The notes under the pieces were generated by a model. The model did not search any database. It saw only the letters and a list, made by a program, of their open reading frames with translations, and was not told the origin of the DNA. A DNA stretch of 64,000 nt from positions 7,363,036 through 7,427,035 of the forward strand of contig BSQZ01000018.1 of the NCBI GenBank assembly GCA_033239005.1, read 5' to 3'. The position numbers were made by a program, and so were the translations under genes. Positions 125 to 40,245 of this stretch are shown in pieces; position 1 is the stretch's first letter; each line of letters starts with the position of its first letter. This DNA is from Lamellibrachia satsuma. Lineage: Eukaryota; Annelida; Polychaeta; Sabellida; Siboglinidae.

Positions 125-208
125 CTGAGTTGTATCAGCCCTGGCAGGTGACGCAGTGTGATGGCCAAAGTGTCTGTCCCTGTGCCAGACAGCTTGCAGC
201 CATTCAAA
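125..208 (-). CDS. NLR exon 15: B-type LRR (28 codons), last exon in the window
   Basis: The acceptor is GTTACAG and the donor CTCAG|GTAGG. It reads LNGCKLSGTGTDTLAITLRH and onward. It ends in phase 2 with an intact donor, so the gene continues left of base 1 with at least one more exon. Confidence 0.82.
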
Positions 209-3200
209 CTGTAACACATATAGATAATGTCAGTATAATAACTCGATCAATTTGTTGATGATTGCAACACTAGAGTGTGGACTGGATCTGTATATACTCT
301 ACTTAGATATAACAAGTAAAGGTGTTAATCAATGTTTGTCAGTGAATTAGTAGTTTATATATCATTTAATATACAATGGCTTATTACCAGCATCACGACA
401 AATGCCCGGTGTCGCAAAATATGCATACCTGGGGGTACTGATGGTCAGGGTTGTTTGATTTAAATCATTTGATTTAAATCACATGAGATCAACAAGGTTT
501 TGTATGTTTTTAATACAAAATACAAAGTGCACACACTTGTGTAGCTGTATTATCACCAGAGAGCCTGATAGTCAAATATTTTATGACATTGTGTATGTTT
601 CTGAATGCAATGAAGCCACACAAACTTGTCTTCCAGAGGAAGTATCTTTTCAACACAGAAGTCCTGAGTTAAAGTCCACTTATAGCTTGTGCTAGTTGTT
701 ACCAATTCAGTATGTTGACTCAGTTGTTTAATACTGTACCAGTTTGTATTCTGGTTAGAAACCCTTAGAGTACACAGAGCCCTGGACAGGTGTTAATCCA
801 CCCTATAGGCAAACAATAATTACCACTGCTACAGCACAGCATGCTTTTCTTTCCAAGACAGATTATGCAACTACAGGGGGTGAGGCCTTATGGACATTGT
901 CTAATGTCTTTATATAAGCAAAAATCATGTACCCTCTGTAGAACCCAAATCAGTTTGAATATAACATGTTTCAAAGAGTTTACAAATTTAAACATCTATA
1001 TAAATATCTATATACCAGATTAAAAAAAATCAAATAAATTTAAAAAATCAAATAAATCCGATTTAAATTTTAAAAATCCAATTTTTATATTTTTTTATAA
1101 AAATCATGATTTTTTTCAACCCTGCTGGTGGTTGTATACTGGTGTGTGAGTGTGTGTGAGCATGCATGCATGCATGTGTGTGATTGTGTGCATCTCTATC
1201 ATTGTTTCTGAATACCGTATTCGTCCTATTAAGGGTACAGGACACTTGAACAAATTCTTCTTCTTCCATTAAACGGCCAACATCATTATGTTGATGATTC
1301 TGTCGTTCGGCGCCTCCCACGTGCCGGGAATTGGTGGGTTAGAGATAGAGACCACCACTCTGAGTCCACAACAGATTACACATTTACCCCTGTGTGGGAT
1401 CTTTTACTTCCCCTGGCATAGACACCAGATAGAAATTTTTACATCATAAAAAATTGTATTTTTTTACAAAAATCTGTGCAAAAAACAAATTAATTTTTGT
1501 TCTGCCAGAAGGCACCACTGTTTTTTATTAATCCACCAGATGGCATCACAACAAAACTTTACAAATGGTGTCCGTCCAAGACCAGCATAATGTTCTAAGT
1601 TGGAAACTTACACATTTTGGACAACTATCTGCGGTTACCATGTATTTAAAACTAAGTATGAGTGAAACATTGGAGAAAAGTTAGCAGTGGCAAACGTTCA
1701 GCACAACAGATGTGCAATATCTATTTTGAAATATAGTAAAAGACTGGCTGTCATACAGACACTGAACCTGTTATAATCAAATATGTGCTCTGTGTGGGGA
1801 ACTAAAAAAATCGGGCAGAACACATCAAGACTCAACGGAAGTGACTGTCAAGATATTTATTCAATGAAGTAACTGGATTGGTATTAAAAGCCTTTTATAT
1901 ATTCACGTGGTCAAAATAGATTAGAGCTGATATTGGTGAAACTTCTGATTTTCTTACTAATGTTGTCACTGAACCATGACCAAAACTGGGGGTGTACGCT
2001 CATTAGAGCATGTACGCTTAATAGGATGAATACGGTATCTGTCTTTTTGTCAAGTCCTCACACACATTGCTGTCTCCTACTGTCTGTGTGTCCATCTATA
2101 TGTCTGTGGGTTACTGCCCTCACACACACTGCAGTCTCCTACTGTCTGTGCGTCCGTCTATATGTCTGTGGGTTACTGTCCTCACACACATTGCAGTCTC
2201 CTACTGTCTGTGTGTCCATCTGTTTGTGGGTTACTGCCCTCACACACATTGCAGTCTCCTACTGTATGTGTGTCCGTCTATATGTCCGTGGGTTACTGCC
2301 CTCACACACATTGCTGTCTCCTACTGTCTGTGTGTCCATCTATATGTCTGTGGGTTACTGTCCTCACACACATTGCAGTCTCCTACTGTCTGTGTGTCTG
2401 TCTATATGTCTGTGGGTTACTGTCCTCACACACATTGCTGTCTCCTACTGTCTGTGTGTCCGTCTATCTGTCTGTGGGTTACTGTCGTCACACACATTGC
2501 TGTCTCCTACTGCCGTGTGGGAGCTTGGAAGTTGGTATGTGTTGAAGCGTAGCCCCAATGACCTGCCTGTTGCTCTTACACTTGCCTGCATTAATATACA
2601 TTAATAGTTTCTATAATGTGAAGAAGATGAAGCTGAAAAAACACATTGATAATTGAATGTGTTTTAGGGGTTGGTAAATGACCATTGTTCCATGAACATT
2701 TTTATTAATGCTTTACTGGTAAATACTCAAGATAGCAAGTGGAATATGAAGCAATTAGTTTATGAGAGTCCAACGATACTGTTAACATCATATTATTAAA
2801 TTATATTGGCAGTGTACTGCATATTGAAACATAACCTGATACGTTTAACTAGCATATTCATTGCATGTGTACCAATTTGTTGGAAATTTCATTGATGCTG
2901 TCATAAAGAACTTGTATGTCAGATATTTTCATCAAACCTCAGTTCCTCTAGTGCTGTCATCTTTGAGATAGCGTCAACTAGGGCTTTACCAGTTGATGGG
3001 TCACCAAATTGGTTGCTGTCTAACCTGTGAAAATATACAATATATGCATAATTTTGTAATTAACATGTATCCCGTTTCAAGAAAATCAAGTGTTGATTTC
3101 AACATTTTAATGCACGTCTAACATTATCTTTAGTTCAGTGAACATACCTAAAATAATTTTTAAACCAAAAATGAAGGCATTAGCAAAACTTCAACTTCTT

Positions 3201-6200
3201 AATTTCATTAATATGCATCACCCCTAAATTGACTGTATGATGATTGAATACTGATAAATGTAACATTCCAAAATTCTGCTGTTCAATAACGTTTATATTG
3301 CTACATACAAACTGTAGTTAAGAAAGAGGATGTAGTGTTACAAGTGGTGCATGGACAAAATCCCTCCCCCGGACAAAAGCCCCACTGGACAAAAGCCCCT
3401 TCAGACAGAAGCCCCACAATCTAATAACTTACTAGTATGCAAACAAATGGGAAATACAGTAATAGACATAAAACAAATGGGAAATACAGTAATAGACATA
3501 AAACAAATGGGAAATACAGTAATAGACATAAAACAAATGGGAAATACAGTAATAGACATAAAACAAATGGGAAATACAGTAATAGACATAAAACAAATGG
3601 GAAATACAGTAATAGACATAAAACAAATGTACACAAAGAAGAGTAGGTCGAACCAAAAGGAAACATTTGATGCACTCAGTAGAACAAGAACTTCTTGTTC
3701 TTGATGCAGTCACTAGATCATTTGACATGTTCTGTTGCTTTCAGGAAAAATTAAACAAACATATTATTTATTGTTTAATGTTGATGTATTTTACAGAAAA
3801 CTGCGTTATCAGCCATTTAAATGTCTGAAATTGTTTATGACTGGGAGACTGGAAAGTATGTACACTTAGCATAACATGACGATAGTTTTTGTGGGACATA
3901 GCATTTTAGCACGTTCCATTGCAAACATATTTAATTGTGTTTGTTTGCCAACAGACATCATGCGTAAATGATGTCACATATTATAAGCCAGAGAATTACA
4001 AACCAGCAAGTTTAACATAAGTGATTTGTAAATTATTAGAAAGGTTAATTAAAGACCATATAGTGGACTTCCTTGTTAGATATAAATTACTAAATCCATC
4101 TCAACATAGATTCCTAAAAGTGAGGTCATGCTTAACGAATATGTTATGTTTTTTTTGAAGAAATCACTAAGTGGACAGACGAGGGATCACCAGTAGATAT
4201 TATCTACTTACATTTTCAGAAAGCTTTCGACAAAGTGCCACATAAAAGATTACTACTTAAATTAAAAGCCCTTGGTAATAGGGATGGCATAATCGATTGG
4301 ATAGAAAATGGCTGACTGACAGAAGACAATGTGCTGCAGTAGAGGGAGGCTTCCAGTTTTGAGTGGGGTACCACAAGGATCAGTATTAGGACCTTTGTTG
4401 TTCTCAATACTTTTCAACGAATTGCACAATAATATAACAAGCAAGGTGCTAACATTTGGATGTAAACAATAAAATGGGAGATACTGTTCTTGGTAATATC
4501 ATAAAAGAAAAGGACTCGTGAGTAACAATAATTGTTGGTATGAAAGTCTATTGCAGCTTCAAAGGATAATCAAATTCTTGGGTTGATTAGGAGAAATATA
4601 ACATATAAGGAAAAAGAGCTAATCATACCTCTGTATAAAGCAATAGTAACATGATTTGGAGTACTAGAGACAAGGGGGTTAAGAGGAGATCAAACTGAAC
4701 TTTTTATAAAGATATTTAATTGGTACGAAAATAGTGATAGAAATATTTCTGTCTCACTTAAGAAAGATAGTAGAACTAGAGGACACGTATCAGAAAGTAC
4801 TCGTTCTCACAGAGGACAATAAATGAATGGAACAAATTATCTACAGATTGTGTAAATGCTAGCAGCGTGAATATGTTTAAAAACAAAGTTGGCAAATATC
4901 ACAGGAGGGTGGGTTACACATAGATGAAAACTTGTCAGACTCTCGAAAAGCCAACGGCTTCCTTGTCCACTTACCATCTGGCCCTTTGCCTTCAATGGCA
5001 ATCTTGTTCAATCTTGTTGTTAAATTATCCTCTTGTTAAATTATCCAGTGATGTTTGTAAAGCTGGGACATGAAATGCACATTTACTGAAGAATCACCCA
5101 TATATCAAAACACTGTATGTATACTTCCTTAATGTACCAAATGAAAGGAATGTAAAAATTTTCAACAATATTTTCAAGCTGCTATTGTCAAATAGATGCA
5201 CTTAAAAGGTATCGTCGGCTACCATCATATTATTGTGGCATAAGACTATGAAAAATCTAATACAAAATAAAGATTAATAAAAGATAACATTTGCCACATG
5301 ATGCATGACCAGAGAAGATATAATACATAGAACTGCTCTAACATACATAGCACACTATGTCATTAAGAGTACACATACCTTGATGTGCTTATGTATTTTC
5401 AAAATATGTAGAATAGTTTAAAAGAGTACTGGTGTATTACCATTCTGAATAAGTTATTCTTACCTGGCTTTTTTCAGCTGTGGCAGCTGACCCAGTGCGA
5501 CGGCCAACGCTTCTGCCCTTGCGCCAGACAGCTTGCAGCCATTCAAACTATGTAACACATATAAATAAAGTCAGTATAACTTAATAATCCTTTGAAAATT
5601 GCAACACTAGAGTGTTTACTGGAACTGTAGACATACAGCTCTACTTATACAGACAACTACAGGTTTTAATCAATATCTTTCAGTGAATTTGCATCTTATA
5701 TATCATTATATGCTGGTTTATTACAAGCTATGTCAAATTCCACAGTTTAGTGCCATATATAATCAATGACACAGCCCTTCTAGTAGTTGATGCAAGGTTT
5801 CTAAAAAAAATGGTTTTGTCTTCTTGTGCAGTATTACTTTGTATACATTACAAATAATTTTTGGATATTTTATGGCAAATCATTTTATGTGCTTTATACA
5901 TAAACGCAGTACTGCTCTAAACTGCACCAAGTCTGTAAACTTTAACATGCGAGATTTGTTAAGCAATGTTGTTGTATGGTCACAACACTGAATCACCCTT
6001 TTTTGTAACATAATTATAAAACTGTAAATTTGTAGAATAGGTGTTACCCCATATCTCCACACCGTACAGTAGATATGGCAAGAATAGTGTGGAATAAAGC
6101 ATTTACATACTACGATATTCCAGTAGTTTGCTGCATCTATACATGATACAGACTGTTATAGACAGCTTAGATTTTACTTGACTGATGTGGTCTTTCCAGT

Positions 6201-9200
6201 TTAATGACTCACTGACAAGAATGCCAAGACATTTTGTGACGTGTACTCTTGTTATCTGCATATTTTTTATCCTGATAGTTATACCAGATATTCATACTTG
6301 ACCAGAAAGTAACATATAGTTGGTCTTTGTTATATTCAAGGACAACTTATTGATTGAGAACCATAGGTGCAATTTAGAAAGTTCTCAACATATAATACAT
6401 TCAAGTTGTTTTACGTTATTGGCTGAACAGAAGATATTTGTGTCACCTACAAACACAATAAATATACAGAATAAATAACTTAGGGCCATGTATAGACCCT
6501 TGTGACACTTCACACTTTGTTCCTTCCAGGCCTGAGCTGCAGCCATCAATGCTTACTATTGATTACCATTAGCAAGGTAATCACTTATCCAATTCCACGA
6601 AAGCCGTAATATTAAAGTTTTTTACAAAGCAAGTGTCGAAAGCTTTCTTGAGATCTATAAATACACTTACTACTCATTTCTTATTGTCTAACGAATTGGT
6701 AATTTCGTCAAGCAATTCTACCAACGCGTGCAAAGTTGACATGCCTTCTCTAAATCCATATTGACATTAGTTTAAGATATTGCAGGAATTTACAAAGCTA
6801 TCAAGTTGAGAGTTAAATAATTTTTCTAGTATTTTAGATAAATGCGGTAGAAGTGAAATCGGTCTGTAGTTAATAAGTAAGTGTTTTTCACCAGACTTAA
6901 TTAAAGGTAATATTATAACTATTTTCATCTTCTGTGGGAAAATGCCATACTTGAATGACAGATTACATATATGAGTCACAGGCTCGGAAATACATTTAAT
7001 CATATTTTTTAACAGTTTCATCGTAATGCCATTGCAGTCGGTTGAAGATTTATTTCCGCAACTATTTACCGTGTGTATAACTTCTTCTTTATCATTATTA
7101 AGCATAATTACCTCTCAAGAAACTTAGTGTTCGTTTTGTATATTTCAACTTCATCTCGCAGTCTTCTTCAGCAGACTGAAGTTACGGATCATCTATCCAT
7201 CCAAGGGTTCTTCTTTATATAAGTTGGTGTCAAAAACATAGAACGTTCATTGCGTGTCCCCATGTAATCAAGTACTGAGACCCCTGATGGAGTTTCTATC
7301 TGTTTTACCAACTCTGGTCCAGTGCTTGTAAAGTATTCGTTAAACGTATTTGCTATAGTATGCCGATCACCGACAGTAATACCATTGTAATTATATTGTA
7401 CAGGGTAGTTGCACTCAACTACTCAATCTACCCATGATGTTTCATAAAACTGTCCAAGTGCCTGATATATTACCTCGTTGACTATAGCTTGCTGTCATAG
7501 TTCCTTTTAGCGAAACGTATGACTGTTGTTCATTTATTTTTGTACGATTTATATCTCAATTTGATATCGTGGTTTCTATTCGGCAGAAACTGTTTATAGA
7601 ACTTATTTTCTCCGACAAGCATTTTTGAGCCCATTCATAAGCCAAGTTCATGCTTATTGCTGTTATTAACTCGGCGAAGCGGACAGTGTCTGTTATATAA
7701 ACCAATGAAGTCATTTAGAAAACACGTGTAAGCCTCATTAACATCTGTGTAATTAAAAACCGTGTCCCAAGATTGTGTGTTCAGTGCAGCTTTTAGTGAA
7801 TTGGTATTCTCCACATTTGTTTGACGGATGTTTGCACATTGCCACTGCGATTATGAGGGTTACTATTACACCTACAGATGGCAAAAACTGGCAAATGATC
7901 GCTTATGTCGGTGATAAGTAACCCACAGGTAATATCATGATTAATTTTGTTAGTAAATATATTATCGAGAAGTGTTGCACACATTCGAAATTTGGGTAGG
8001 CTTAGTTATGACTGGGTACATATCTAGGCTAAACATCAGATCTAGAAAATATTTGGTACCTCTGTGCGAGTCATATTTCAGTAAGTCTATATTGAAATCA
8101 CCACAAATAAATAGTTTTCTTTCAATGTGATAAGTTGAGTAACCTTGTAGATAACCTTGTAGATAACCTTGTAGATAACCTTGTAGATAAAACTGGGACA
8201 TCTGATCTGTTATCGCCCATGTTTCAGAGACAGCTATGATGTCGAAAGCAATATTCAGTGAATCTAAATAATTACAGATGTTTTCAAAGTTTGCATTCTG
8301 ACTACGTGAATTAAATTGAACAAACGACAGACTTCCACAGTCAATATTATATGATCCACAAAGATTTTAATTAAATTGCTGAACTGAATAATATTTGGGA
8401 AATACAATTATAAAAGTTATTCTCTGGGTCAATATTGTTTTCTAGCTGTATAGTCTGAGTATTTAAATGTACTAAGTTTAACTCATCTAACTGATTGAAA
8501 GTGTGTTGTTGTGGTAATTCAAAATCATTTTGTATAATTTTATGTAGAAATTCATCGTCACTTATTCCCACATACGGGAGAGCAAATAATGTGTTCATTG
8601 TCCTACTGCAGTCTAAATTCTCGCAAGGTATGCTTTCACCATTTGTCCGCCCTCGTTGATCTTGATGTACACACACTGACAATTTTGTTTTCTCATTTAA
8701 ATTTTCTGGCTAGGCAGAAGAGGCCTTCACTAACAGAGTTGTCTCCTACTCCTTTGTTGGAGCTTGTAAATAGGCATGTTTTAAACCTACACCTGTGACC
8801 TGTGGGGTTTTCTTACACCTGTCTATGATGTATTTGGCTCCTAAATTAGTAGTTTTTCTATGCCATGAAGGTTGTATCCGTGACAAAAAAAGTATTCACA
8901 ACTGAAACTTGGTTGGAATGTGGTAAATACCATCGTTCCATGAAAAGGTGAATTACTGCTTTGCTATTACATACTCCAGCTGGCAAGTGGACCATGAAGC
9001 CATTGGCCAAAAAGAGTCCAACATTATCATTGACAACATTATTATTATTAAATTATATGGACAATGCATCAATTAATGAAATATAGTTTGATACTTTTGA
9101 CTAACATATTCATTGCATGTAAAGGTAAAGCTATTTGTTAGAAGTTTCCCATTGTCATAAAGATATTATATGTCAGACATTTTCATCATACCCCAGTGTC

Positions 9201-10341
9201 TCTAGTTTTGTCATCTTTGAGATAGCGTCAACTAGGGCTTGACCAGTTGACGGGTCATCAAATTTGTTGCTGTCTAACCTGTGAAAATGTAAAATATATG
9301 TGTAAATTATTTATTAAAATGTTTAGTGATATTACAATATTTACAGGTGTTCACTTTAAAATTGTTAGTGCACAACTACTGAAATAATTAAAGTAAACAG
9401 TATGAAATATTTTGTAAACACAAGGTGATGGCATACAGAAGACATTTGTATCAATACATATCACTGCTAGAATGACTGTGTGACGTTTGGATGCTGACAA
9501 AGGTAACGTTCCAACATTCTGCTGTTCACAAATGTTAATAATGATACACACAAACCATAGTGAATAAAACGGATGTAGTGTAACAAGCAGGTCCACTTCA
9601 GGTCCAAGTAACATTGGAAGATCATGATATTTATGTTGGAATTAAGCAACAGCCATAGGTTAATATTATATCAGTGGATGCTACAGGAAATAAATACACA
9701 TTAAGTTGTATAGATAAATGGGGTGTCATTTCCTGTCTTGGGCTACGTGTGTCAAACAGTATTCATATACAAATACTATTTCAAATTGTATCATATGGCT
9801 GATGCAGCAGATGATTGATGCAGTAGACGCCAGGTAATGGCCAGTATGCACATCATGGTCCCTTATGTACAGTTAAAATGTGTATGAATGGCTTGAGTAA
9901 GTACACATGTACATCAGTATGTATAAAAGTAAAACACCCTATTCAGTTATTCCTACTTGAGTTTTGTCAGCAGTGGCAGGTGCTGCAGCGCAGCGGCCAA
10001 AGTGTATGCTCCTGCGCCAGACAGCTTGCAGCCATTCAAACTGTAACACGTACAGATAACATCAGTATAAAAACTTAATAAATCTGTAGATGGCAAGGCA
10101 ACACTAGAGTGTGGACTGGACCTGTAGATGCGACTTTACACATAAAACAAACATGTAAAACAAACAGATCACTGAATGGAAGTGAATTGATAGCTTATAT
10201 ACGATTTAAAGTGAAACAAGTTATGGTTTTGAGCCTATGCAAATATCAACTCACCCAACATTGCTTACTTCTCAGCTCACTTAATTGAAAGTTCGTATGT
10301 CGATCTTGGCTCCCCGTTTGTATGTCGATCTTGAATGTGTG

Positions 10342-10377
<36 letters not shown>

Positions 10378-14379: not shown

Positions 14380-14430
<51 letters not shown>

Positions 14431-17400: not shown

Positions 17401-17587
17401 AAAACAGTGCGTACATTGAGAAAGTGTCCCGCCATAGCAGGTGTCCCGCTCATCAGAGGGTCCGTCGAAGGTAGGTACTACTGTAGCAGTGTATACTGGC
17501 TTATTACCGACCATGTCATGCCATGACAAATGCCTAGCGTATTATCACAAGAATACGCATACCTAGGTTGGTGTACTGGTTTGTGTG

Positions 17588-17619
<32 letters not shown>

Positions 17620-25860: not shown

Positions 25861-25899
<39 letters not shown>

Positions 25900-31800: not shown

Positions 31801-34800
31801 TCTTCTGTATGTAAGGCACATTTCTATCCAGTTGATTACATCATTACCTATACCATGGGCTTTTAGTTTAAGTAACAATCTTTGATGTGGCATTTTATTG
31901 AAAGCTTTCTGAAAATCTAAGTAGACAACATCCACTGGTGACCCGTCATCTACCCACTTTGTAATTTCTTCAAAAAAACAAGAGATTGGTTAGACATGAC
32001 CTTGCAATGTTTGCTTCTTTCCATTCTGAAGGAACTATTCCTTCTTCTAGTGACAAGTTAACCAATTTTGCATGTGTTAACTTCATGTGTTTCTTCATGA
32101 AATGTGTCCAGTATATAGGGTCTTTAGTACAGCCACTGTAAGATAACAACACTGAATTAATACACAATGAATTGTTTGAATACAATGAGGGAAAGTGTAT
32201 TTTGGCAAAAGTGTACCATTTATGTGAAAACACCTATTCATTATTTATTGAAATGGTCAATATGCGTGAGATTTACAGATAACTGCGAACGAGTGTGAGT
32301 GGAAGTCAAATGTTTAAGTATCACGCCAACAATGTTCGAGACTTGGTACATATGATTGTTCTCTTTTCCACGTTCCCGCATCTCCATCCTGCTTTAGGTC
32401 AGGCATCTCAGATCAACAGTCCTACCATCTCAGACAAACAGGCCTACCATATCAGATCAACAGTCCTACCATCTCAGATCAACAGGCCTACCATCTCAGA
32501 TCAACAGTCCTACCATCTCAGATCAACAGTCCTACCATCTCAGACAAACAGGCCTACCATATCAGATCAACAGTCGTACCATCTCAGATCAACAGGCCTA
32601 CCATCTCAGATCAACAGTCCTACCATCTCAGATCAACAGTCCTACCATCTCAGAAAAATAGGCCTACCATATCAGATCAACAGTCCTACCATCTCAGATC
32701 AACAGTCCTACCATATCAGATCAACAGTCCTACCATCTCAGATCAACAGTCCTACCATCTCAGATCAACAGTCCTACCGTCTCACAACAACACTCCTACC
32801 ATCTCAGATCAACAACCCTGCCGCTGACAAAGAAATCTCTCAACTGTTAGTGGGCGGGGCTTACGTATCCCGGAAGACGATTTTTTTGCATTACTTTCTG
32901 ATCATGCTCATGATTAGGTTCATGTGCAACTACAATCCCCACTCATGATCAGGTTCATGTGCAACTACAATCCCCACTTATGATTAGGTTCATGTGCAGC
33001 TACAATACCCACTCATGAGTAGGTTCATGTGCAGCTACAATCCAAACTCATGATTATGTTCATGTGCAGCTACAATCCCCATCTCATGTTTAGGTTCATG
33101 TGTAGCTACAATCCCCACTCATGATTAGGTTCATGTTCAGCTACAATCTCAGATCAACAGCCCTACCACCGACAACGATATCTCTCAACTGTTTGTGGGC
33201 AGGGCTTACGTATCCCGGAAGATGATTTTTTTGCATTACTTTGTGATCATGCTCATGATCAGGTTCATGTGCAACTATAATCCCCACTCATGATTAGGTT
33301 CATGTGCAGCTACAATACCCACTCGTGATTATGTTCATGTGCCGATACAATCCCCAATCATGATTAGGTTCATGTGTAACTACAATCCCCACTCATGATT
33401 AGGCTCAAGTGCAGCTATAATCCCCATTCATGATTAGGTTCATGTGCAGCTACAATCCCCACTCATGATTAGGTTCATGTGCAGCTACAATCAACACCTC
33501 ATGATTAGGTTCATGTGCAGCTACAATCCCCACTCATGATTAGGTTCATGTGCAACTACAATCCTCACCTCATGATTAGGTCTGTGTGCAGCTACAATCC
33601 CCACCTCATGATTAGGTTCATGTGCAGCTACAATCCCCACTCATGATTAGGTTCATGTGCAGCTACAATCCCCACCTCATGATTAGGTTCATGTGCAGCT
33701 ACAATCCCCACTCATGATTACGTTCATGTGCAGCTACAATCCCCACCTCATGATTAGGTTCGTGTGCAGCTACAATCCACACTCATGATTAGGTTCATGT
33801 GCAGCTACAATCCACACTCGTGATTAGGTTCGTGTGCAGCTACAATCCCCACTCAGAATATCTGCCTCCATACCTGTAACTGTAGCATCCTGGACTGGTC
33901 GTTGGGCTGAAACAAATGTATATTTATATTCCTATGATGATCATCATTTGGAACCCCAATACCCCCACAAAACAAAATCCCCCTAGGATAATATCCCCCT
34001 GGACAATAACCCCCTAGGACAAAATCATCATAAGCAAAATCCTCAATCCAAAAGAATATAACAGTTATCAATATGTTACTGCAGGGTGGAGTACGACACC
34101 CAGGGTAAGGAGACATCGTATGAAGAAAGAATCCTTTGGGTATATATTGTCTATGTGCTATGAATGATCTATTTCATTATCTTCAGTATGTTCCGTGTGT
34201 TGAAATTGTTCACATATCTAGTCTAAAAAAAGTTGTAGCCATTTTAGCAGACGTTTCTACAGTGGCATAAAAGACCCACCCACAGGGTAAGTCGCCCACC
34301 TCTGGGCTTTTGCATTTGCAATATTATAATTTCTTTATTTGACTATTGTTCTCATATAACGCCCGTAACGGATACATTTATACCACTACTATAATCATAA
34401 TTTGCATAATAATGTAACTAAAATTTTTATTATGTGGACTCTTGAGTATTTTGGACTGTATAGTAAATATGAATGGTTTTTTACGGTTTAATGGTTTTTT
34501 GTTGCTAACGAACAGGGGATATTGTCCAGGGATATTGTCCTAGGGGGATTTTGTCCCAGGGGATATTGTCCTAGAGGGATTTTGTCCCAGGGGCGTTTTG
34601 CCCACAGGGATAATGTCCTAGAATCAAATAAGTATTTGAACGAATTTACAAATCTACGGTCCTGTCCCCGAAATCTATGATTCTGATTTCGAATGGTAGA
34701 TTGCCTTAAAAAATCTGTATCTTTCACCCCACAACTAGGAAGACAGAGCAATCAAACACGTTTTTTATAATTTGTAATTAAACATATCTAACCCGAATTG

Positions 34801-37421
34801 CATAGACTATTATTAAGAAAAAAATCCACAATGCACAATTATGTTTATTTTGATTATAGCTGGTATACACATGCATTTGTGATTTTGGCTTGGTTGCATG
34901 GTTTGGGTAAAGTATTAAATACTATAATACTTCACTTCTCTATTCACATGTACTTCTCAGTCTCATGATAAGAGGCAATAAATAAAGAAATTACCACGTC
35001 ATTTGACAAATACATAAGTCATTGGAGGGTAGATAGGGGTGTGGCAGAGGTTTCAACCTCCCACCTTACACATCACCTTTGGCCCATAAGGCTTCATTGC
35101 TCCTTCTCCAGCTTGTTCTGTTTTGGCCACTTGTCTCGCTTCTTTCCATGGTTTCAACCCTAAATCTTGTCTTTGTTTTTCTACAGGTTTCCTCCAGGTT
35201 GTTTTTGTTTCAACCTCCCATCTCCCACCTATTTGTGTGGCCAATCTCCTCCCATCTCCCACCTATTTGGGTGGCCAATCTCCTCCCATCTCCCACCTAT
35301 TTGCATAGCCAATCTCCTCCCATCTCCCTCCTATTTGTGTGGCTAACCTCCCACCTCCCACCATTGTTGAGAGTTTACCTCTCACCTATTTCTGAGGCCA
35401 ATTTCCCACCTCCCACCAATTTTTAGGACCAACCTCTCATTTCCTGCCACACCCCTCAGTAGAATGCTCTGGTGATATCCTCTATGAGCATTTCACATCT
35501 TTCATACCTGTCATCATATCCTGGGCTGTCCTGACTTCTTGCAACTGTTGTTCATGGACTTGCAGCTGAATGGCCTGTTGTCGTAGTTGATCTGTGTTCG
35601 CTTGGCCTTGTACTAAAACAAATGCAACTCAAATATTATCTAGTACGGCTAAGCAAATTGTTCACGATGTAATGTGTAACCTTCATTTCATATAGACATG
35701 ATATATTGTAAATTTGGTCAATGCATAAGATAAGATTTTTTTCATTGCCAGCCTATTCATTCATTTAGTAAAAGGTCACATTTATTATTGTCAGGAGAAA
35801 TTAGGATAAGATGAACAAGTAAAAGTAAACAACAAAGTGAAAGTAAACAACAAAGTGAAAGTAAACAACAAAGTGAAAGTATACTGTCATCTTTTGCTGT
35901 TAGCATCAACATCCATAGAACAAAACAGGTCTGTATACCTCTAAAAAAGAATACAAATCATAGTGAGTCACCAAGAGAGCCGATATAATCATTTCAGAAC
36001 AGATCATATCCAAATAAAGAGGGGATAATGCTAAAAAAAATGTTTTAATACTTAGCACATCCCAACTTTAGGAATCTTTCTACTTTAAGAAATAGCTAAT
36101 GAGAAAACCTAGATTACACTGTACCTATGACTTGCTGATTATGCCTTTGCAGCAGAGATATCATTTGACCTTGCTGTTGCTGTTTCCCTTCCAAATGATA
36201 CATCGCTTGACCTTGTTGCTGCTGTTGCCCTTGCAGCTGATGCATCACTTGACCTTGATGTTGGTGTTGCCCTTGGAGTTGATACATCTCTTGACCTTGC
36301 TGCTGCTGCTGCCCTTGCAGCTGATGCATCACTTGACCTTGCTGCTGCTGTTGCCCTTGCAGCTGATGCATCACTTGACCTTGCTGCTGCTGTTGCCCTT
36401 GCAGCTGATGCATCACTTGACCTTGATGTTGCTGTTGCCCTTGGAGTTGATACATCTCTTGACCTTGCTGCTGCTGTTGCCCTTGGAGTTGATGCATCAC
36501 TTGACCTTGATGTTGCTGTTGCCCTTGGAGTTGATACATCTCTTGACCTTGCTGCTGCTGTTGCCCTTGCAGCTGATGCATCACTTGACCTTGCTGCTGC
36601 TGTTGCCCTTGCAGCTGATGCATCACTTGACCTTGCTGTTGCTGTTTCCCTTCCAAATGATACATCGCTTGACCTTGCTGTTGCTGTTTCCCTTCCAAAT
36701 GATACATCGCTTGACCTTGCTGCTGCTGTTGCCCTTGCAGCTGATGCATCACTTGACCTTGATGTTGCTGTTGCCCTTGGAGTTGATACATCTCTTGACC
36801 TTGCTGCTGCTGTTGCCCTTGGAGTTGATGCATCACTTGACCTTGATGTTGCTGTTGCCCTTGGAGTTGATACATCTCTTGACCTTGCTGCTGCTGTTGC
36901 CCTTGCAGCTGATGCATCACTTGACCTTGCTGCTGCTGTTGCCCTTGCAGCTGATGCATCACTTGACCTTGCTGCTGCTGTTGCCCTTGCAGCTGATGCA
37001 TCACTTGACCTTGCTGCTGCTGTTGCCCTTGCAACCGAGTGATGTCATGGCCTTGTTGCTGCTGCACTGCTGTTCACGGGCAAATGAGACGTCTAAATAA
37101 TACAACTTAACAAAACATATGATGATAGATATATAGATAGATGGTAATATGTTAACATCTACAAAAACGAAAATAGAAGAACTAAGACAATGCTTAAGTA
37201 ACTATCACAATACTGGTTGCAAATTATCTTTGTATCCTTGATTATATAATCTAGCATACTGTTTGCTGCCATAAAACATATTTGTTCCATCACATTATTA
37301 GAAACTTCAGTTACACCAGATAATTCCAGTAAACAAGCAACGTTGTGTACAAAATATGTAATGTTGAGTTATACATGCCACCAGCTGCTGACGTGTAACA
37401 CAGACTTGTTCAGATGTTGTG

Positions 37422-37457
<36 letters not shown>

Positions 37458-38571
37458 TGTGTACATGCATGCGCAAGTGTGCGTGGGATTGTGCGTGCAC
37501 TCGCCATGTATGTAGTAGTGTAACCTCTTAGTCATAGCCATGTATCATTTAAATTCAATATTTTTATGTGAATTTCTGCATTGCCAGCTATGGTTAACCA
37601 GGACGGTTGGATAGCATGCATATTGCCAATATGAACTATACACAGTGGTTGTGTCTACATAGGGACATTGGATGGCATGACACTCTACTATTTCACATAT
37701 AAAAAAAATCCAAGACAAAAAATATTTTGGATGTGTCTAATAAAGAGCAAACTGGAAATGATAGGATCATCCCACTGACTTTGATACACCAACATTGCAC
37801 TGCAGTTAATCAATGAAGTTGTGTAAAATTTACAGAAAAACAGCTGACAAAATGATTGTTGATATTTGTGCTGCCAATACCTGCTTGGCTTTGCTGGTTT
37901 TGATCAAGCGCCTGCACCGTCCCATCAAGTGCCAGCACCGTCCCGTCAAGTGCCTGCACAGTCCCGTCAAGTGCCTGCACCATCAAGTCAAGTCCACTGT
38001 ACCTCTGCCTCTCGGCATCAAGCAGTTGTTTGAGGCGGGTGCACTCTGCAGTGACCACGGGGTCTCGTGCCCATTGTCTCATCACAGTGAGGTTCCATTG
38101 CAGTTGTGCATAGATCGTATTTAATAATGCCAATTTCTGGATGAAGGTTGCACTCGGTACAGATGCTGAAGTGGAGTGGGCCAACTCATTTCGCATCTCC
38201 CGCAGTTCATCGACACGTTCACTATCTCGAAAAGGTGGTGTCCTCGTGCCAGGTGGTGTCCTAGGCTTTGGATGCAGAATCCTAGTTCCAGAGTACAGCA
38301 GACACGTAAACAAAGCTGTGCAATCATAGAGCGCAGTGTCACCCTGTCTAATAGTGTCGATGATGTGTTGACCTATATGCCTTGTGTTTGAATTTGGAAA
38401 ATTTGAAATGAAAAATTGTCCTGATTGCTGATCGTCGCGCCATGCAATGTTGAATCGTTGATGATATTTGCTCTTAAAGAAAACACGAAGCCTGCGAGGT
38501 ACATCATCCCACAGAATGCGTATGAGACGCAAAAAGTTTTCTTGATCGGGTGTTAGTGGAGTACCACTCAT
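125..38571 (-). CDS. HEPN - coiled-coil - NACHT - LRR receptor (NLR-type), 3'-partial, 15 coding exons
   Basis: This is the whole-gene entry; exons are listed separately. Joining the exons 38571-37881, 37069-36125, 35612-35508, 33906-33874, 28596-26997, 26404-26321, 22839-22756, 18701-18615, 16076-15993, 12033-11947, 10040-9957, 9278-9192, 5547-5464, 3024-2938 and 208-125 gives one open frame of about 1,408 codons with no stop. Phases agree at every junction: phase 1 through the NACHT acceptor and phase 2 afterwards. The order HEPN (DZIP3 type), heptad and glutamine-rich repeats, NACHT and ribonuclease-inhibitor-like LRRs is that of a cytosolic NOD-like receptor, where LRRs sense, NACHT oligomerises on nucleotide binding and the N-terminus signals. 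Immune sensing and RNA cleavage or binding by HEPN are inferred from family knowledge. The 3' end, stop codon and any further LRRs lie left of base 1. An acceptor just upstream of the ATG implies a 5' non-coding exon not located with certainty. Exons could be missing between 33874 and 28596. Confidence 0.82.
446..1124. mobile_element. hAT-like non-autonomous element (MITE) with 8-bp TSD
   Basis: The ends are inverted (CAGGGTTG at 446 and CAACCCTG ending at 1124), each followed inward by ATTTAAATC/AAATC-rich sequence. The flanking 8-mers CTGATGGT (438-445) and CTGGTGGT (1125-1132) match at 7 of 8 positions, as expected of a hAT target duplication. No transposase is seen. It sits in the intron between exons 14 and 15. 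Confidence 0.75.
1212..2038. mobile_element. TIR element of about 827 bp (ATACCGTATTC ends)
   Basis: The left end ATACCGTATTCGTCCTATTA and the right end are near-perfect inverted repeats over about 28 bp, with two or so mismatches. No transposase ORF is present, and no target duplication could be confirmed. It includes a copy of the dispersed repeat at 1310-1430. A lone related TIR copy lies at about 23348-23376. Confidence 0.6.
1310..1430 (-). repeat. Dispersed repeat, copy 1 (inverted relative to 19958-20080)
   Basis: The reverse complement closely matches about 120 bp at 19958-20080 (shared words GGTGTCT, CCAGGGGAAGT, AAGATCCCACAC, GTAAATGTGTAA). No family name is assigned. Confidence 0.6.
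2059..2512. repeat. 62-bp minisatellite, about 7 copies
   Basis: The unit begins CACACACATTGCTGTCTCCT with a 62-bp period (some units 58 bp after loss of TATA). Its core CTCCTACTG also occurs at the matching intron position beside exons 10 (51-bp array) and 12 (single copy), so the array grew from an intron sequence already present in the duplicated LRR module. The long open frames across it are repeat artefacts. Confidence 0.85.
2938..3024 (-). CDS. NLR exon 14: A-type LRR (29 codons)
   Basis: The acceptor is TTCACAG and the donor CTGAG|GTTTGA, weaker than the GTATGA of sister exons. It reads LDSNQFGDPSTGKALVDAIS and onward. The open frame and phase are kept. Confidence 0.8.
3237..3340. repeat. 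Conserved intron block, copy 1 of 4
   Basis: The block (core AAATTCTGCTGTTCA, then CATACAAACTGTAGT and GTAGTGT) recurs at 9480-9585, 14446-14560 and 22093-22205, each time in the intron on the 5' side of an A-type LRR exon. This is direct evidence that exon pairs duplicated with their introns. Confidence 0.75.
3355..3410. repeat. Fragment of the 'GGACAAAAGCCCC' repeat
   Basis: This short G/C-rich run (GGACAAAAGCCCC repeated) resembles the ends of the inverted element at 33950-34625. It is probably a remnant or terminal motif of a DNA element. Confidence 0.45.
3438..3628. repeat. 30-bp minisatellite, 6.3 identical copies
   Basis: The unit contains AAACAAATGGGAAATACAGT with a period of 30, and copies look identical. 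The 30-bp period makes all frames open, so its ORFs are artefacts. Confidence 0.92.
3975..5055 (+). mobile_element. LINE-A (CR1/Rex-like), degenerate 3' fragment, copy 1
   Basis: The plus-strand translation in several frames gives decayed reverse-transcriptase pieces: a Y-K-P-A-S-L-T type block, then QKAFDKVPHKRLLLKLK, then the C-terminal T-R-G-H segment. Frameshifts and a deletion between about 4450 and 4540 disrupt it. It ends with repeats of CTTGTTAAAT, as do the copies at 30748 and 48597. It is dead. Confidence 0.8.
5056..5463. other. Intron sequence without recognised features
   Basis: This is AT-rich DNA between LINE-A copy 1 and NLR exon 13. I see no repeat, ORF or motif of note. Confidence 0.6.
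5464..5547 (-). CDS. NLR exon 13: B-type LRR (28 codons)
   Basis: The acceptor is TTACATAG (TAG rather than the CAG of its sisters, apparently from an extra AT at the border) and the donor GCCAG|GTAAGA. It reads LNGCKLSGARAEALAVALGQ and onward. The final consensus leucine is alanine (KKA), a mild departure from the LRR pattern. Confidence 0.78.
5750..8690 (-). mobile_element. LINE-C: decayed non-LTR retrotransposon with endonuclease and RT
   Basis: On the minus strand, from high to low coordinates: endonuclease N-terminal part near 8340-8210 (FNSRSQNANFENI... AVSETW), endonuclease core near 8120-7840 (ICGDFNIDLL; DISDHLPVFA), RT near 7105-6767 (NYRPISLLPHLSKILEKL) and C-terminal part near 6062-5880. 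Many stops and frameshifts show it is inactive. It belongs to the Jockey-superfamily type (CR1-like), different from LINE-A. A 12-bp in-frame expansion at 8133-8194 repeats Y-L-Q-G four times. It lies in the intron between exons 12 and 13. Both ends are approximate. Confidence 0.8.
8738..9185. repeat. Intron block shared downstream of A-type exons 10, 12 and 14
   Basis: The word CTCCTACT followed by an AGCTTG/GTTTT context and, further on, GGCAAGTGGA...GAGTCCAAC recur at 2500-2935 and (partly) 11640-11940. All lie just 3' (in gene sense) of an A-type LRR exon, so they are remnants of the duplicated module. Confidence 0.6.
9192..9278 (-). CDS. NLR exon 12: A-type LRR (29 codons)
   Basis: The acceptor is TTCACAG and the donor CTGGG|GTATGA. 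It reads LDSNKFDDPSTGQALVDAIS and onward. It is nearly the same as exon 14, suggesting a relatively recent duplication between these two. Confidence 0.83.
9480..9585. repeat. Conserved intron block, copy 2 of 4
   Basis: TGACGTTTGGATGCTG and AACATTCTGCTGTTCA are shared with 3237, 14446 and 22093. A second shared block (ATATGGCTGATGCAGCAGA) follows at about 9795. Confidence 0.75.
9957..10040 (-). CDS. NLR exon 11: B-type LRR (28 codons)
   Basis: The acceptor is GTTACAG and the donor CTCAA|GTAGG. It reads LNGCKLSGAGAYTLAAALQH and onward. The intron to exon 12 is only 678 bp and contains no large insertion, so it serves as the reference 'empty' state of the duplicated module. Confidence 0.83.
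10335..10380. repeat. (TGCG)n microsatellite
   Basis: This is a run of GCGTGCGTGCGT. Similar runs occur at about 17587-17622, 37421-37459 and 43999-44025, often followed by degenerate CATGCATG/GTGCATG sequence, so they may be part of one dispersed element family. Confidence 0.85.
10400..11440. other. Long intron between exons 10 and 11: no clear feature
   Basis: After a degenerate GCATGC-rich tract (to about 10550) the sequence is unique-looking and AT-rich. No exon with paired splice sites or long ORF was identified. Confidence 0.5.
11463..11666. repeat. 51-bp minisatellite, 4 copies
   Basis: The unit contains TTTCCCTTTAACAAAGTGAC and CTCCTACTGCCAGGTGGGAT with a period of 51, nearly identical across copies. 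It grew from the same CTCCTACTG intron motif that seeded the 62-bp array at 2059. Confidence 0.9.
11947..12033 (-). CDS. NLR exon 10: A-type LRR (29 codons)
   Basis: The acceptor is TTCACAG and the donor CTGAG|GTATGA. It reads LDSNRFDDQATVHVLANNVL and onward, an A-type repeat. The intron on its 5' side contains the RTE-like LINE (12220-14430). Confidence 0.82.
12220..14430 (-). mobile_element. RTE-like LINE, internally deleted
   Basis: On the minus strand, 13990-13480 carries endonuclease sequence (FNAHVGVVEPGEEE; YGWGARNREG; SHKITYRCGQHKTELDL). A 404-codon ORF (13477-12263) gives the linker (GWWTSEVAEAVCEKKEAWKE), then jumps from KKGRAPGI straight to the C-terminal region (MRWAGHLVRMDANKLAKRAE). 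The reverse-transcriptase catalytic core (Y-x-D-D) is therefore missing without loss of frame. The type resembles RTE/BovB-like elements annotated as 'craniofacial development protein 2-like'. It has TA repeats at both borders. The paralogous intron near 9460 lacks it, showing the insertion is younger than the module duplication. Confidence 0.82.
14382..14428. repeat. (TA)n microsatellite
   Basis: About 23 TA units sit at the 5' edge of the RTE-like insertion, next to resumed intron sequence. Confidence 0.95.
14446..14560. repeat. Conserved intron block, copy 3 of 4
   Basis: GTGACATTTGGATAATG and AAATTCTGCTGTTCAAAAAT are shared with the other three copies. Its continuation of the intron interrupted at about 12220 confirms the RTE element's borders. 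Confidence 0.75.
14570..15985. other. Intron between exons 9 and 10: mostly unassigned
   Basis: It holds the shared word ATATGGCTGATGCAG (about 14796) and then unassigned sequence. A GC-richer stretch (15540-15660) precedes a segment resembling the 3' end of a retroelement (TAATGTCCATTTATAAACGC, about 15674). No coding exon was found. Confidence 0.45.
15993..16076 (-). CDS. NLR exon 9: B-type LRR (28 codons)
   Basis: The acceptor is GTTCCAG and the donor CTCAG|GTAGG. It reads LNRCQLSGAGTKALADAL and onward, a B-type repeat matching exons 11, 13 and 15. It lies just outside the TIR element at 16224-17482. Confidence 0.82.
16224..17482. mobile_element. TIR element of about 1.26 kb with subterminal GTGTCCC...CATCAGA repeats
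   Basis: The ends AGTAGTACCTGCCTTCAAC (left) and the inverted equivalent at the right match with few differences. Inside each end lie inverted copies of AAGTGTCCC and GGCAGGTGTCTCCTCATCAG. No transposase is recognised; the small ORFs inside have no known motif. It lies in the NLR intron between exons 8 and 9. Confidence 0.68.
17587..17622. repeat. (TGCG)n microsatellite
   Basis: A GCGTGCGTGCGT run followed by the same GCATGCATG-rich degenerate tail seen near 10390. Confidence 0.85.
17825..18115 (+). repeat. Dispersed repeat, about 290 bp, copy 1
   Basis: It is similar, in the same orientation, to 40914-41205 (shared words ATGGTCAAAAAGTT, CTTGAGAAGTT, ACATTGGTACAGATTATCT, CAAGAATTATAGGG). 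The family is unidentified. Confidence 0.75.
18365..18511. repeat. Foldback element: 49-bp stem, 49-bp loop
   Basis: 18365-18413 (AGTCCTTTATTAGGTAAACA...) and the reverse complement of 18463-18511 agree at 46 of 49 positions. As part of the NLR pre-mRNA it would form a near-perfect hairpin. It probably derives from a small foldback MITE. Confidence 0.85.
18615..18701 (-). CDS. NLR exon 8: A-type LRR (29 codons)
   Basis: The acceptor is TTTTTACAG and the donor CTGAG|GTATGA. It reads LDSNKFGDSTIAQTLAANVS and onward, a 29-residue A-type repeat (LDSNxFxDxxxxxxLA) paired with the 28-residue B type. Phase 2 is kept. Confidence 0.82.
18815..18890 (+). repeat. tRNA-derived SINE-like head
   Basis: GGGGCGCGGTTGTCTGAGGT resembles a tRNA 5' end with A box, and GGTTCGAGTCC fits a pol III B box about 45 bp downstream. 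It does not fold as a full tRNA by eye, so it is called a SINE head, not a tRNA gene. Confidence 0.5.
19958..20080 (+). repeat. Dispersed repeat, copy 2
   Basis: Same family as 1310-1430, opposite orientation. Confidence 0.6.
20111..21975 (+). repeat. 35-bp minisatellite, about 53 copies
   Basis: The unit contains CAGTAAGGCCGTAGCTGACT followed by CCCTACAGGGGTCTA. Variants such as GGCCATA, GGTCGTA and AACTGACT are grouped in blocks, showing that neighbouring units spread by local duplication. CCCTACAGGG is an imperfect palindrome in each unit. It lies inside the composite insertion. Confidence 0.95.
22093..22205. repeat. Conserved intron block, copy 4 of 4
   Basis: TGACGTTTGGATACTG and AAATTATGCTGTTAAAAATG match the other copies. 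It is followed at about 22395 by a shared CAGCAGATGGCTG-rich segment that here is itself repeated. Confidence 0.72.
22756..22839 (-). CDS. NLR exon 7: B-type LRR (28 codons)
   Basis: The acceptor is ATGTTACAG and the donor CTCAG|GTAGG. It reads LDHCKLTDEGVKALVDTL and onward, the standard NLR LRR consensus (LxxCxLxDEGxxxL). It is the most divergent of the five B-type exons; the others begin LN(G/R)C(K/Q)LSG. Confidence 0.82.
22850..23780. other. Intron between exons 6 and 7, left part
   Basis: It contains the block shared upstream of B-type exons (short remnant near 22880), a lone GTACGCTTAATAGG TIR (about 23351) and a self-repeating GACGGGTGG stretch (23550-23600). No exon is seen. Confidence 0.45.
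23870..25690 (+). mobile_element. LINE-B: degenerate non-LTR retrotransposon
   Basis: Broken plus-strand frames give an RT sequence: VIYVDFQKALDTVPHKRLIN, GIPQGSVLGSLLFVLYI at 24561-24830, INDL...FLFGDGMKIF (the FADD catalytic box changed to F-G-D-G) near 24830-24890, then a C-terminal tract (QTVNKATKMTKIICRTFQFL) and W-N-S-F-L-E near 25590. It is a Jockey/CR1-like relative with clearly different codons from LINE-A. It is inactive because of frameshifts, stops and the changed catalytic motif. Ends are approximate. Confidence 0.82.
25864..25916. repeat. (GT)n then (GC)/(CA) microsatellite
   Basis: About 16 GT units followed by GCGCGCGCACGCACACACGC, a purine-pyrimidine alternation that can adopt Z-DNA. 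Confidence 0.95.
26321..26404 (-). CDS. NLR exon 6: first LRR (28 codons)
   Basis: The acceptor is CTTCCAG and the donor TTAGA|GTAAGT. In phase 2 it reads LSYSSLDVHLVRQLCNGL and onward, a ribonuclease-inhibitor-type LRR with L-x-x-L spacing, directly after NACHT. At 84 nt it is exactly one repeat long. It differs most from the other LRR exons and probably caps the array. Confidence 0.8.
26405..26996. other. Intron 5: no feature seen
   Basis: This is 592 bp of AT-rich intron between the NACHT exon and the first LRR exon, with no repeats or ORFs of note. Confidence 0.8.
26997..28596 (-). CDS. NLR exon 5: NACHT ATPase domain
   Basis: The exon is 1600 nt, with acceptor TTGTTTTCAG at 28599-28597 and donor CTCAT|GTAAGT. 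The first 75 or so residues contain MFVELRLQKF, the pre-NACHT strand typical of invertebrate NLRs. The Walker A motif GKAGIGKTTL is at about 28321-28292. Walker B reads VMIVEEGLDE, so the usual first aspartate of the L-D-G-L-D-E core is glutamate while the final D-E is kept. Sensor 1 is KVIITSRP. Then come a helical/winged region (ELYGFPQESIKKYI, YVPLLCNIIC, TMTQLYIYAVV) and the late NACHT motif HLTIQEMFAA. This is the STAND-class switch that would bind ATP and oligomerise. The Walker B change might slow hydrolysis; that is inference. The exon is uninterrupted and looks functional. Confidence 0.92.
28600..30745. other. Intron 4, right-of-NACHT part: no clear feature
   Basis: This is AT-rich sequence without clear repeats. 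The small ORFs here have no domain signal and no matched splice sites. An additional phase-1 exon cannot be excluded. Confidence 0.5.
30748..32130 (-). mobile_element. LINE-A copy 2 (internally deleted)
   Basis: Minus-strand RT sequence: LSLEEGIVPSEWKEANI near 32060-32000, then a jump to RSCLTNLLFF, so about 170 bp present in copy 3 are missing. It continues with MDVVYLDFQKAFNKMPHQRL, LQGSVLGPILFLIYINDL, KFADDTKVFR and the C-terminal half (IVRPHLEYCILAWRPYRKKD) to about 30845. The FADD catalytic motif is kept, but frameshifts near 31490 and 31570 break it. The 3' end has CTTGTTAAAT-type repeats. It extends slightly further 5' than copy 3. Confidence 0.88.
32399..32815 (+). repeat. 22-bp minisatellite, about 19 copies
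   Basis: The unit AGATCAACAGTCCTACCATC plus TC, with a minority variant ACAAACAGGCCTACCATATC. The resulting 217-codon ORF (H/S/T/Q-rich) is a repeat artefact. Confidence 0.93.
32820..33850 (+). repeat. 35-37-bp minisatellite with higher-order duplication
   Basis: The unit contains TCATGATTAGGTTCATGTGC followed by AGCTACAATCCCCAC, about 25 copies. A 110-bp non-repeat segment (ATCTCTCAACTGTT...GGGCTTACGTATCCCGGAAG) lies at 32838 and again at 33178, so one block of array plus flank was copied as a unit. It ends just beside the microexon at 33874. Confidence 0.88.
33874..33906 (-). CDS. NLR exon 4: 33-nt microexon
   Basis: This very small exon of 33 nt is bounded by TTTGTTTCAG and TTACAG|GTATGG. 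In phase 1 it adds AQRPVQDATVT and then joins the NACHT exon codon G|AA (Glu). Length, phases and splice motifs all fit, but an 11-codon exon carries little coding evidence of its own, and skipping it would also keep the frame. Its donor abuts the 35-37-bp array at 32904-33850. Confidence 0.5.
33950..34625. mobile_element. Inverted-repeat element (CCCCTAGGACAAAATCCCC ends)
   Basis: The left arm (33950-34025) carries several CCCCCTAGGA(C/T)AA(A/T)ATCC motifs and the right arm (34505-34625) their reverse complements (GGGGATATTGTCC, GGGATTTTGTCC). The middle is AT-rich and non-coding. It looks like a non-autonomous DNA element with iterated subterminal motifs; borders are approximate. Confidence 0.6.
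34630..35180. other. Intron 3: no clear feature
   Basis: AT-rich intron sequence, no exon signal. Confidence 0.5.
35190..35455 (+). repeat. C/T-rich degenerate repeat (CAACCTCCCATCTCCCACCT)
   Basis: About eight imperfect units of roughly 30 bp. A similar motif (GGGAGGTTGGGACTC, inverse sense) occurs at 38740-38815 before the 34-bp array, so the two may share origin. Confidence 0.6.
35508..35612 (-). CDS. NLR exon 3: Q-rich coiled-coil linker (35 codons)
   Basis: This 105-bp exon has a strong acceptor (TTTGTTTTAG) and donor (GACAG|GTATG). In phase 1 it reads V-QGQANTDQLRQQAIQLQVHE and onward, with regularly spaced hydrophobics in a glutamine-rich helix, so it continues the coiled-coil stretch of exon 2. 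The flanking sequence is a degenerate C/T-rich minisatellite (35190-35455) and AT-rich intron. No known domain is recognised in it. Confidence 0.65.
35815..35880 (+). repeat. 18-bp repeat, 3-4 copies
   Basis: AAAGTAAACAACAAAGTG repeated inside intron 2. Confidence 0.85.
36125..37069 (-). CDS. NLR exon 2: glutamine-rich 14-residue tandem repeats
   Basis: The exon has 315 codons, enters and leaves in phase 1, and is open throughout. The acceptor is AACAG and the donor ATAG|GTACAG. It consists of about 22 copies of a 14-residue repeat, typically GQQQQQGQVMHQLQ, with variants ending EMYQLQ and AMYHLE. Each unit is 42 bp, so copy-number changes keep the frame. Fourteen residues are two heptads with M and L spaced as in a coiled coil, which suggests an extended helical or low-complexity linker between HEPN and NACHT. 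The opposite strand is also open (an L-rich reading) because of the repeat, but it lacks splice consistency. The acceptor pyrimidine tract is weak; its support is the exact phase match to exon 1. Confidence 0.72.
37421..37459. repeat. (TGCG)n microsatellite
   Basis: A GCGTGCGTGCGT run in the intron between HEPN exon 1 and exon 2, followed by the degenerate GTACATGCATGCG tail seen at other copies. Confidence 0.9.
37881..38571 (-). CDS. NLR exon 1: DZIP3-type HEPN domain plus heptad repeats
   Basis: The first coding exon has 230 codons plus one base. It starts at the ATG of MSGTPLTPDQ, 9 bases inside an acceptor (CTTTTCAG) that makes it exon 2 of the transcript; an in-frame upstream ATG lies across that acceptor and was not used. 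Residues 15-165 match the HEPN domain of DZIP3/hRUL138-type proteins: W-D-D-V-P-R-R-L-R near 21-29, an aromatic/aliphatic core (ALYDCTALFTCLLYS) near 80-94, and R-N-E-L-A-H at 127-132, the R-x4-H signature of the HEPN superfamily. Residues 175-192 are helical and charged, and 197-223 hold four near-perfect heptads (VQALDGT) encoded by a 21-bp in-frame minisatellite. The exon ends at CAG|GTATTG. HEPN domains may be RNases, RNA binders or adaptors; which applies here cannot be read from sequence. Confidence 0.8.
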
Positions 38572-38804
38572 GTTTGAACTCTGAAAAGAAATATATACAA
38601 GACGTTTGAATGCATTCACATCAACATCAGCTACACCTGCATTCATAACCACAATATGCTGTTCATGGAACGACACCAAAATGGACCATGGGAATGTGTG
38701 ATCATGCTTAAAAACTTAAAATGATCGCGTCTTAAAAACTGGTGGGAGGTTGGGACTCAAAAATAGATGGGAGGTGATGATGGCTGCCAAAACAGGTGGG
38801 TAGT

Positions 38805-40165: not shown

Positions 40166-40167
40166 CC

Positions 40168-40245
40168 TCACTAGATGGTATCTACTTACATTTCTGCTTT
40201 CGATAAAGTGCCACATCAAATGTTGCTACTTAAATTAAAAACTAA
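40168..40245 (+). mobile_element. LINE-A scrap ending the 34-bp array
   Basis: The same block as at 39447, extending to L-L-K-L-K. Its last 30 bp also start the second copy of the duplication at 41398. Confidence 0.8.

Follow-up and report, generated by a model that had tools for sequence, protein, structure and literature searches.

Do the HEPN domain, coiled coil, NACHT NTPase and leucine-rich repeats (LRRs) encoded on the minus strand of a stretch of the tubeworm Lamellibrachia satsuma genome belong to one receptor gene, and what might an NLR of this siboglinid do with a ribonuclease (RNase)-type domain at its N-terminus? The stretch, here called the window, covers 64,000 nucleotides at positions 7,363,036-7,427,035 of contig C18 (BSQZ01000018.1) in a genome of 735 Mb and 279 contigs. 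Animal NLRs are usually viewed as signalling via death-fold domains. Our analysis suggests that the four parts constitute a single HEPN-NACHT-LRR gene belonging to a family that recurs in this genome, that the product is probably an NLR-type receptor with an RNase-like effector, and that its HEPN module has apparently been swapped between NACHT clades.

The exon chain rebuilt on the minus strand runs from window position 38571 to 125 and contains 15 exons that encode HEPN, coil, NACHT and LRR in this order, with introns 1-4 in phase 1, introns 5-14 in phase 2, GT and AG ends throughout and 1408 codons devoid of a stop, thus bearing out the phase-consistent chain that a first-pass annotation of the same DNA had claimed. 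Exon 1 (37881..38571) starts with the ATG at 38571, encodes the HEPN domain (about residues 1-170, including R127 and H132) and the first four coil heptads, and ends in a phase-1 donor. It is followed by three exons of phase 1-1, comprising exon 2 (36125..37069), a Gln-rich coil in which a coding unit of 42 bp (14 residues) forms a minisatellite with about 20-21 copies, exon 3 (35508..35612, 105 nt), which continues the coil, and exon 4 (33874..33906), a linker of 33 nt. Exon 5 (26997..28596), entered in phase 1 and left in phase 2, encodes the NACHT NTPase and the helical part after it. The remaining ten exons, all of phase 2-2 and part of the same chain as NACHT, encode LRRs. The first (26321..26404) measures 84 nt and from the second onward exons of 84 nt (28 residues; A exons at 22756..22839, 15993..16076, 9957..10040, 5464..5547 and 125..208) alternate with exons of 87 nt (29 residues; B exons at 18615..18701, 11947..12033, 9192..9278 and 2938..3024, the last with the weaker donor GTTTGA). 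An interpretation in which the B exons provide alternative 3' ends that terminate in stops was dropped, since these stops sit behind phase-2 donors of the GTATGA or GTTTGA type and the 28- and 29-residue units alternate. Further LRR-like exons lie past the left edge of the window (L039-L041), four of them within 26 kb, and the 3' end of the gene was not found in the 30 kb read to the left, for which reason the gene seems to continue beyond the window. The span of 125..38571 that had been assigned to it thus holds at its start, whereas position 125 is probably not its end and the gene looks incomplete in the window.

The NACHT and LRR parts are readily identified. The NACHT exon scores 96 bits with Pfam PF05729 (cut-off 26.7) and matches NLRP3 structures with an E-value of about 1e-25. 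It contains the Walker A motif GKAGIGKT, intact as the first-pass annotation had stated, the variant Walker B motif EEGLDE, in which the acid preceding G-x-D-E is E instead of D, and the motifs VIITSR and FSHLTIQE. When 25 NACHT loci were scanned, a Walker B motif was found in 21, with E in 18 and D in three that belong to a clade termed B, and none was detected in the other four. In the LRR part, LRR_1, LRR_4 and LRR_6 exceed their cut-offs and among structures the closest match is ribonuclease inhibitor (1.4e-28), in line with the earlier assignment.

The HEPN domain is more divergent. Its motif R127-N-E-L-A-H132 (RNELAH), recognized already in the first pass, is of the R-x4-H kind and fits the HEPN consensus Rx4-6H, and its R and H are conserved in 71 of 72 aligned rows at identities that extend down to about 31%. 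The proposed DZIP3 type is recognized in relatives of the domain but not in the domain itself, which does not match PF18738 at E-values up to 10 (gathering score 27 bits). Two relatives that were retrieved with a profile built from the window HEPN and its paralogues, P0077 (32.9 bits) and P0056 (29.1 bits), exceed the gathering score, and 10 of 14 paralogues have a listed PF18738 match at E<=5 (best 9.1e-5). The window HEPN is thus best described as divergent DZIP3-like, by a link that runs through its relatives rather than through its own Pfam score. The closest named protein is P0028 of L. satsuma (86% identity over 95% of the query), and P0057 of Ridgeia piscesae bears the name DZIP3-like HEPN. 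A ratio of non-synonymous to synonymous substitution rates (dN/dS) of 0.21-0.31 places the HEPN domain under constraint, which, together with the conserved RNase-like dyad, fits a role as effector. In the LRR units, pooled ratios of the first sets were 2.45 (A3-A6), 1.70 (A2-A6) and 0.93 (B1-B4). Once the sets were enlarged by three A exons and one B exon, the values became 1.40-1.50 for the A exons, with 73 and 68 of 500 bootstrap replicates below 1; they were 1.40 for A2-A9 (bootstrap range 0.69-3.03) and 0.97 for B1-B5 (0.46-2.11). Positive selection on the LRR units is not claimed, as the bootstrap ranges of the enlarged sets span 1, and what these data display is a constraint weaker than in HEPN and nothing beyond. 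A ratio near 1 in the LRRs compared to 0.21-0.31 in HEPN would fit a variable sensor combined with a constant effector, without proving it.

That the four parts form one gene is suggested by three lines of evidence: ordered exon pairs across the genome, fused predicted proteins of L. satsuma and coil exons that recur in paralogues. Searches of the genome returned at least 85 NACHT rows (76 of 179 first-look candidates scored) and 67 HEPN rows, of which 76 and 42, respectively, were kept after removal of second pieces, coil-only rows and three pieces of 34 residues. In 22 of the 42 HEPN exons, a NACHT exon follows on the same strand at a distance of 1.5-24 kb (limit 30 kb), compared to 0.07 such pairs expected under uniform placement, and within that limit none of the 42 has a NACHT exon preceding it or on the opposite strand. 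The other 20, such as those at C78:2739299, C151:31272 and C7:12606299, have no listed NACHT within 30 kb. Four tandem HEPN-NACHT genes, including the one in the window (the others at L002-L004 and L010-L012), occupy C18 between 6.96 and 7.40 Mb at a spacing of 135-148 kb. HEPN-NACHT fusions are also found among the predicted proteins of L. satsuma. In P0003 and P0004, to which exon 1 is 70% identical and which share the start methionine of the window HEPN, NACHT is above its cut-off and LRR matches are above cut-offs in P0004 and below in P0003. P0068 is a fusion with NACHT, and P0082 and P0084 contain HEPN-like and NACHT stretches, with the HEPN part recognized by eye and the motif stretch missing in P0082. 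The count of this architecture in the genome, which the first-pass annotation had called for, thus gave 22 pairs in addition to the predicted proteins, so that the fusion is not confined to this locus. Certain gene models contain further domains: in P0005, HEPN is joined to PARP6 and in P0084, HEPN-NACHT is accompanied by a poly(A)-polymerase domain of mitochondrial type, both of which are probably gene-model fusions of neighbours. In P0083, a CXorf38-type HEPN (DUF4559, 106.8 bits) is placed N-terminal to a NACHT that is 65% identical to that of the window; either a further family of HEPN occurs with this NACHT clade, or the gene model is a fusion.

The coil between HEPN and NACHT is encoded by minisatellites with units of 21 and 42 bp that differ widely in copy number among paralogues. 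A heptad repeat of the LDGTVQA type (21 bp per unit) follows the HEPN domain within exon 1, and a count by regular expression gave roughly 4, 4, 23, 27, 10, 42, 2 and 0 units in L009-L016. The window copy combines four heptads in exon 1 with 20-21 copies of the 14-residue unit in exon 2 (36142-37033), a unit that is absent from paralogue C18c and present about once in C18d. The corresponding lengths of exon 2 are 63 nt (C18c), 105 nt (C18d) and 945 nt (window), equivalent to 63 nt plus 0, 1 and 21 units of 42 nt, and exon 3 measures 84 nt in each of two tandem paralogues compared to 105 nt in the window. All length changes measured in these two exons are in-frame and multiples of 21 nt. Exon 4 is 33 nt long in the window and in both paralogues, 92-95% identical including its flanks and with conserved AG and GT, and the AG/GT ends of coil exons 2-4 are found at the same places in the two tandem paralogues. 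We read the coiled coil as a linker whose length may either be free to drift or tuned.

A second pronounced feature of the family concerns the relationship between its modules. The HEPNs of C14b, C3a, P0003 and P0004 share 71-72% identity with the window HEPN, their NACHTs only 28-29% with the window NACHT. Conversely, in 13 other genomic pairs the NACHTs share 48-64% with that of the window and the HEPNs only 35-41%. C14a, with values of 44% for HEPN and 28% for NACHT, sits on a long branch of the HEPN tree, and its NACHT is interrupted by a stop. The three tandem copies group with the window in both trees. Forced agreement between the trees was rejected in approximately unbiased (AU) tests with p-values of 7e-11 (NACHT) and 0.003 (HEPN), which are post hoc as the swap groups were picked after the identities had been seen. 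The distribution of E and D in Walker B agrees with the NACHT tree, with D in the three clade-B loci. The HEPN donor is of phase 1 in all six resolved paralogues of eight looked at, and the NACHT acceptor is of phase 1 in both resolved paralogues of six looked at, one of which has a second candidate that is of phase 1 too. It thus appears that the HEPN module was swapped between NACHT clades, for which recombination in a phase-1 intron would be the simplest reading. Exon shuffling, including that of N-terminal repeats, was proposed for zebrafish NLRs (PMC4852459).

The first-pass annotation had regarded the locus as its best candidate for an under-described system, a view that the literature does not sustain. 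Fusions of the DZIP3/hRUL138 HEPN to NACHT, LRR, CARD and DEATH in animals are found in Table 1 of Anantharaman et al. 2013 (PMC3710099), the pearl oyster Pinctada fucata contains more than 50 NACHT proteins with an N-terminal DZIP3-like HEPN (PMC9646362), anthozoans contain 17-83 HEPN-NACHT proteins per species (PMC8260672), corals a high number, many with N-terminal HEPN (PMC10236652), and in Aplysia one protein combines Death-like, HEPN, NACHT and LRR domains (PMC9334734). The architecture is therefore already published for corals and molluscs. The closest resemblance is to P. fucata, which shares the N-terminal HEPN, central NACHT and C-terminal LRR and a large lineage expansion, and where R-x4-H is the commonest motif (131 proteins) and Rx4-6H is found in 194 of 202. 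Unlike in the window, the oyster HEPN was called by PF18738, and the accessible part of that account mentions neither a heptad linker nor an exchange between HEPN and NACHT clades (PMC9646362). In nine named species of cnidarians, HEPN accompanies NACHT more often than any other non-LRR domain. The Dzip3-like HEPN-NACHT proteins of this group come from a different phylum and are described in the accessible passages as domains and counts rather than gene structures (PMC8260672; PMC10236652). With NLRP3-type animal NLRs the window gene shares a NACHT with Walker A, the FxHLT motif and phase-matched ribonuclease-inhibitor LRR exons, a modularity described for human NLRs (PMC6642158). It differs from them by HEPN in place of CARD, PYD or death fold, none of which is among the Pfam matches listed for the reading frames of HEPN, coil and NACHT (for NACHT 25 of 29), and by the D-to-E replacement in Walker B of this NACHT clade. 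Bacterial HEPN-STAND systems similarly join HEPN to a STAND NTPase or employ it as effector with one (PMC3710099; PMC8195603). A close sequence match was not found in PADLOC: the best for the NACHT exon is weak, with an E-value of 0.0018, and at E<=0.1 the HEPN exon has none. An expansion of NLRs was described in vestimentiferans, with 68 copies in L. luymesi and 20 in P. echinospica (PMC8476170). The word HEPN is absent from the main text of two tubeworm genome papers that report such expansion, including the latter, and no publication on HEPN-NLRs in tubeworms or annelids was found in a search that covered few subscription journals. Since the architecture is published and such a paper was not found, we regard the locus as a known kind in a new lineage, where the HEPN-NLRs of a tubeworm, the apparent HEPN swap between NACHT clades and the coil linker of 21- and 42-bp coding repeats are new.

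NACHT proteins oligomerise when they exchange nucleotide, and the sites of HEPN domains arise at the interface of a dimer. The explanation that we favour, with a probability of roughly 0.6, is a single NLR-type receptor gene with an N-terminal HEPN, a heptad coil whose length varies, NACHT and LRRs of the ribonuclease-inhibitor type, in which the LRRs would recognize a ligand of microbial or self origin, nucleotide exchange in NACHT would drive oligomerisation and the coil would draw HEPN domains into dimers. R127 and H132 of two protomers would then form a metal-independent endoRNase site that might cut viral or host RNA and thereby stop infection or translation. HEPN and NACHT exons join at phase-1 introns, and in this lineage the HEPN module seems to have moved between NACHT clades. 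An RNase action switched by LRR sensing is what we infer from the sequence. Within the HEPN superfamily, the majority of domains that retain the conserved motif build an endoRNase site that is independent of metal (PMC3710099). The same source considers some HEPN domains as non-catalytic RNA binders, and the receptor may thus be real with a HEPN that is a sensor or adaptor rather than a nuclease and binds RNA or protein partners but does not cut. We hold this to be unlikely but still worth serious consideration, as the RNase activity is predicted from sequence and a sequence search did not find a solved structural relative of the domain. However, binding alone would not obviously require the near-invariance of both R127 and H132 across distant rows.

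It is improbable that this member of the tandem array has fallen silent or is decaying, with an architecture that was once functional in a copy no longer expressed. The donor of exon 1 is weak (GTATTG), the gene would exceed 64 kb with retroelement fragments, recognized by eye, in its introns, and three of the 25 NACHT loci read (L046, L057 and L058) contain stops inside the exon. This is opposed by the 1408 open codons, by frame-keeping indels in the coil and by dN/dS values of 0.34-0.69 over HEPN and NACHT exons of the tandem cluster, in which one HEPN pair is without synonymous change. The remaining stops of the loci read fall into the first 27 residues, before the acceptor of the exon, and a reading of stops in NACHT rows as decay of paralogues was dropped for this location in most loci. 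Very improbable, finally, is an origin of HEPN and NACHT from two neighbouring genes. Their reading frames are separated by about 9 kb with a reverse-transcriptase fragment in between, but the 22 pairs of the same order and strand with none arranged otherwise, the fused predicted proteins and the phase-1 coil exons conserved between them in two paralogues argue for a single receptor gene.

Other features of the window include LINE-like reverse-transcriptase fragments, recognized by eye, at 30845-31989 (-), in the intron preceding the NACHT exon, at 48751-50315 (-) and at about 4021-8700. A 34-bp minisatellite with about 39 copies in two stretches (38803-40179) is located immediately upstream of the HEPN exon, and an open reading frame of 611 codons at 53415-55250 (+) encodes BTB, BACK and Kelch domains of the KLHL type.

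Collectively, a HEPN-NLR family that is repeated and constrained, and whose RNase-like dyad is nearly invariant, suggests an output that is directly enzymatic, of the kind proposed for HEPN-STAND proteins of bacteria, and offers a clean target for a catalytic-dead test. Beyond the single locus, we tentatively consider it possible, though doubtful, that vestimentiferan NLRs form an expanded set in which RNase-type HEPN effectors serve as interchangeable cassettes, with modules that recombine at phase-1 introns, frame-keeping heptad minisatellites that set the length of the linker and possibly the CXorf38/DUF4559 HEPN of P0083 on the same NACHT clade. Such receptors would control RNA viruses or tune the tolerance of symbionts by RNA cleavage. 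The naming of their N-terminal effector could alter the reading of the NLR expansion in animals that lack a gut and are nourished by bacterial symbionts.
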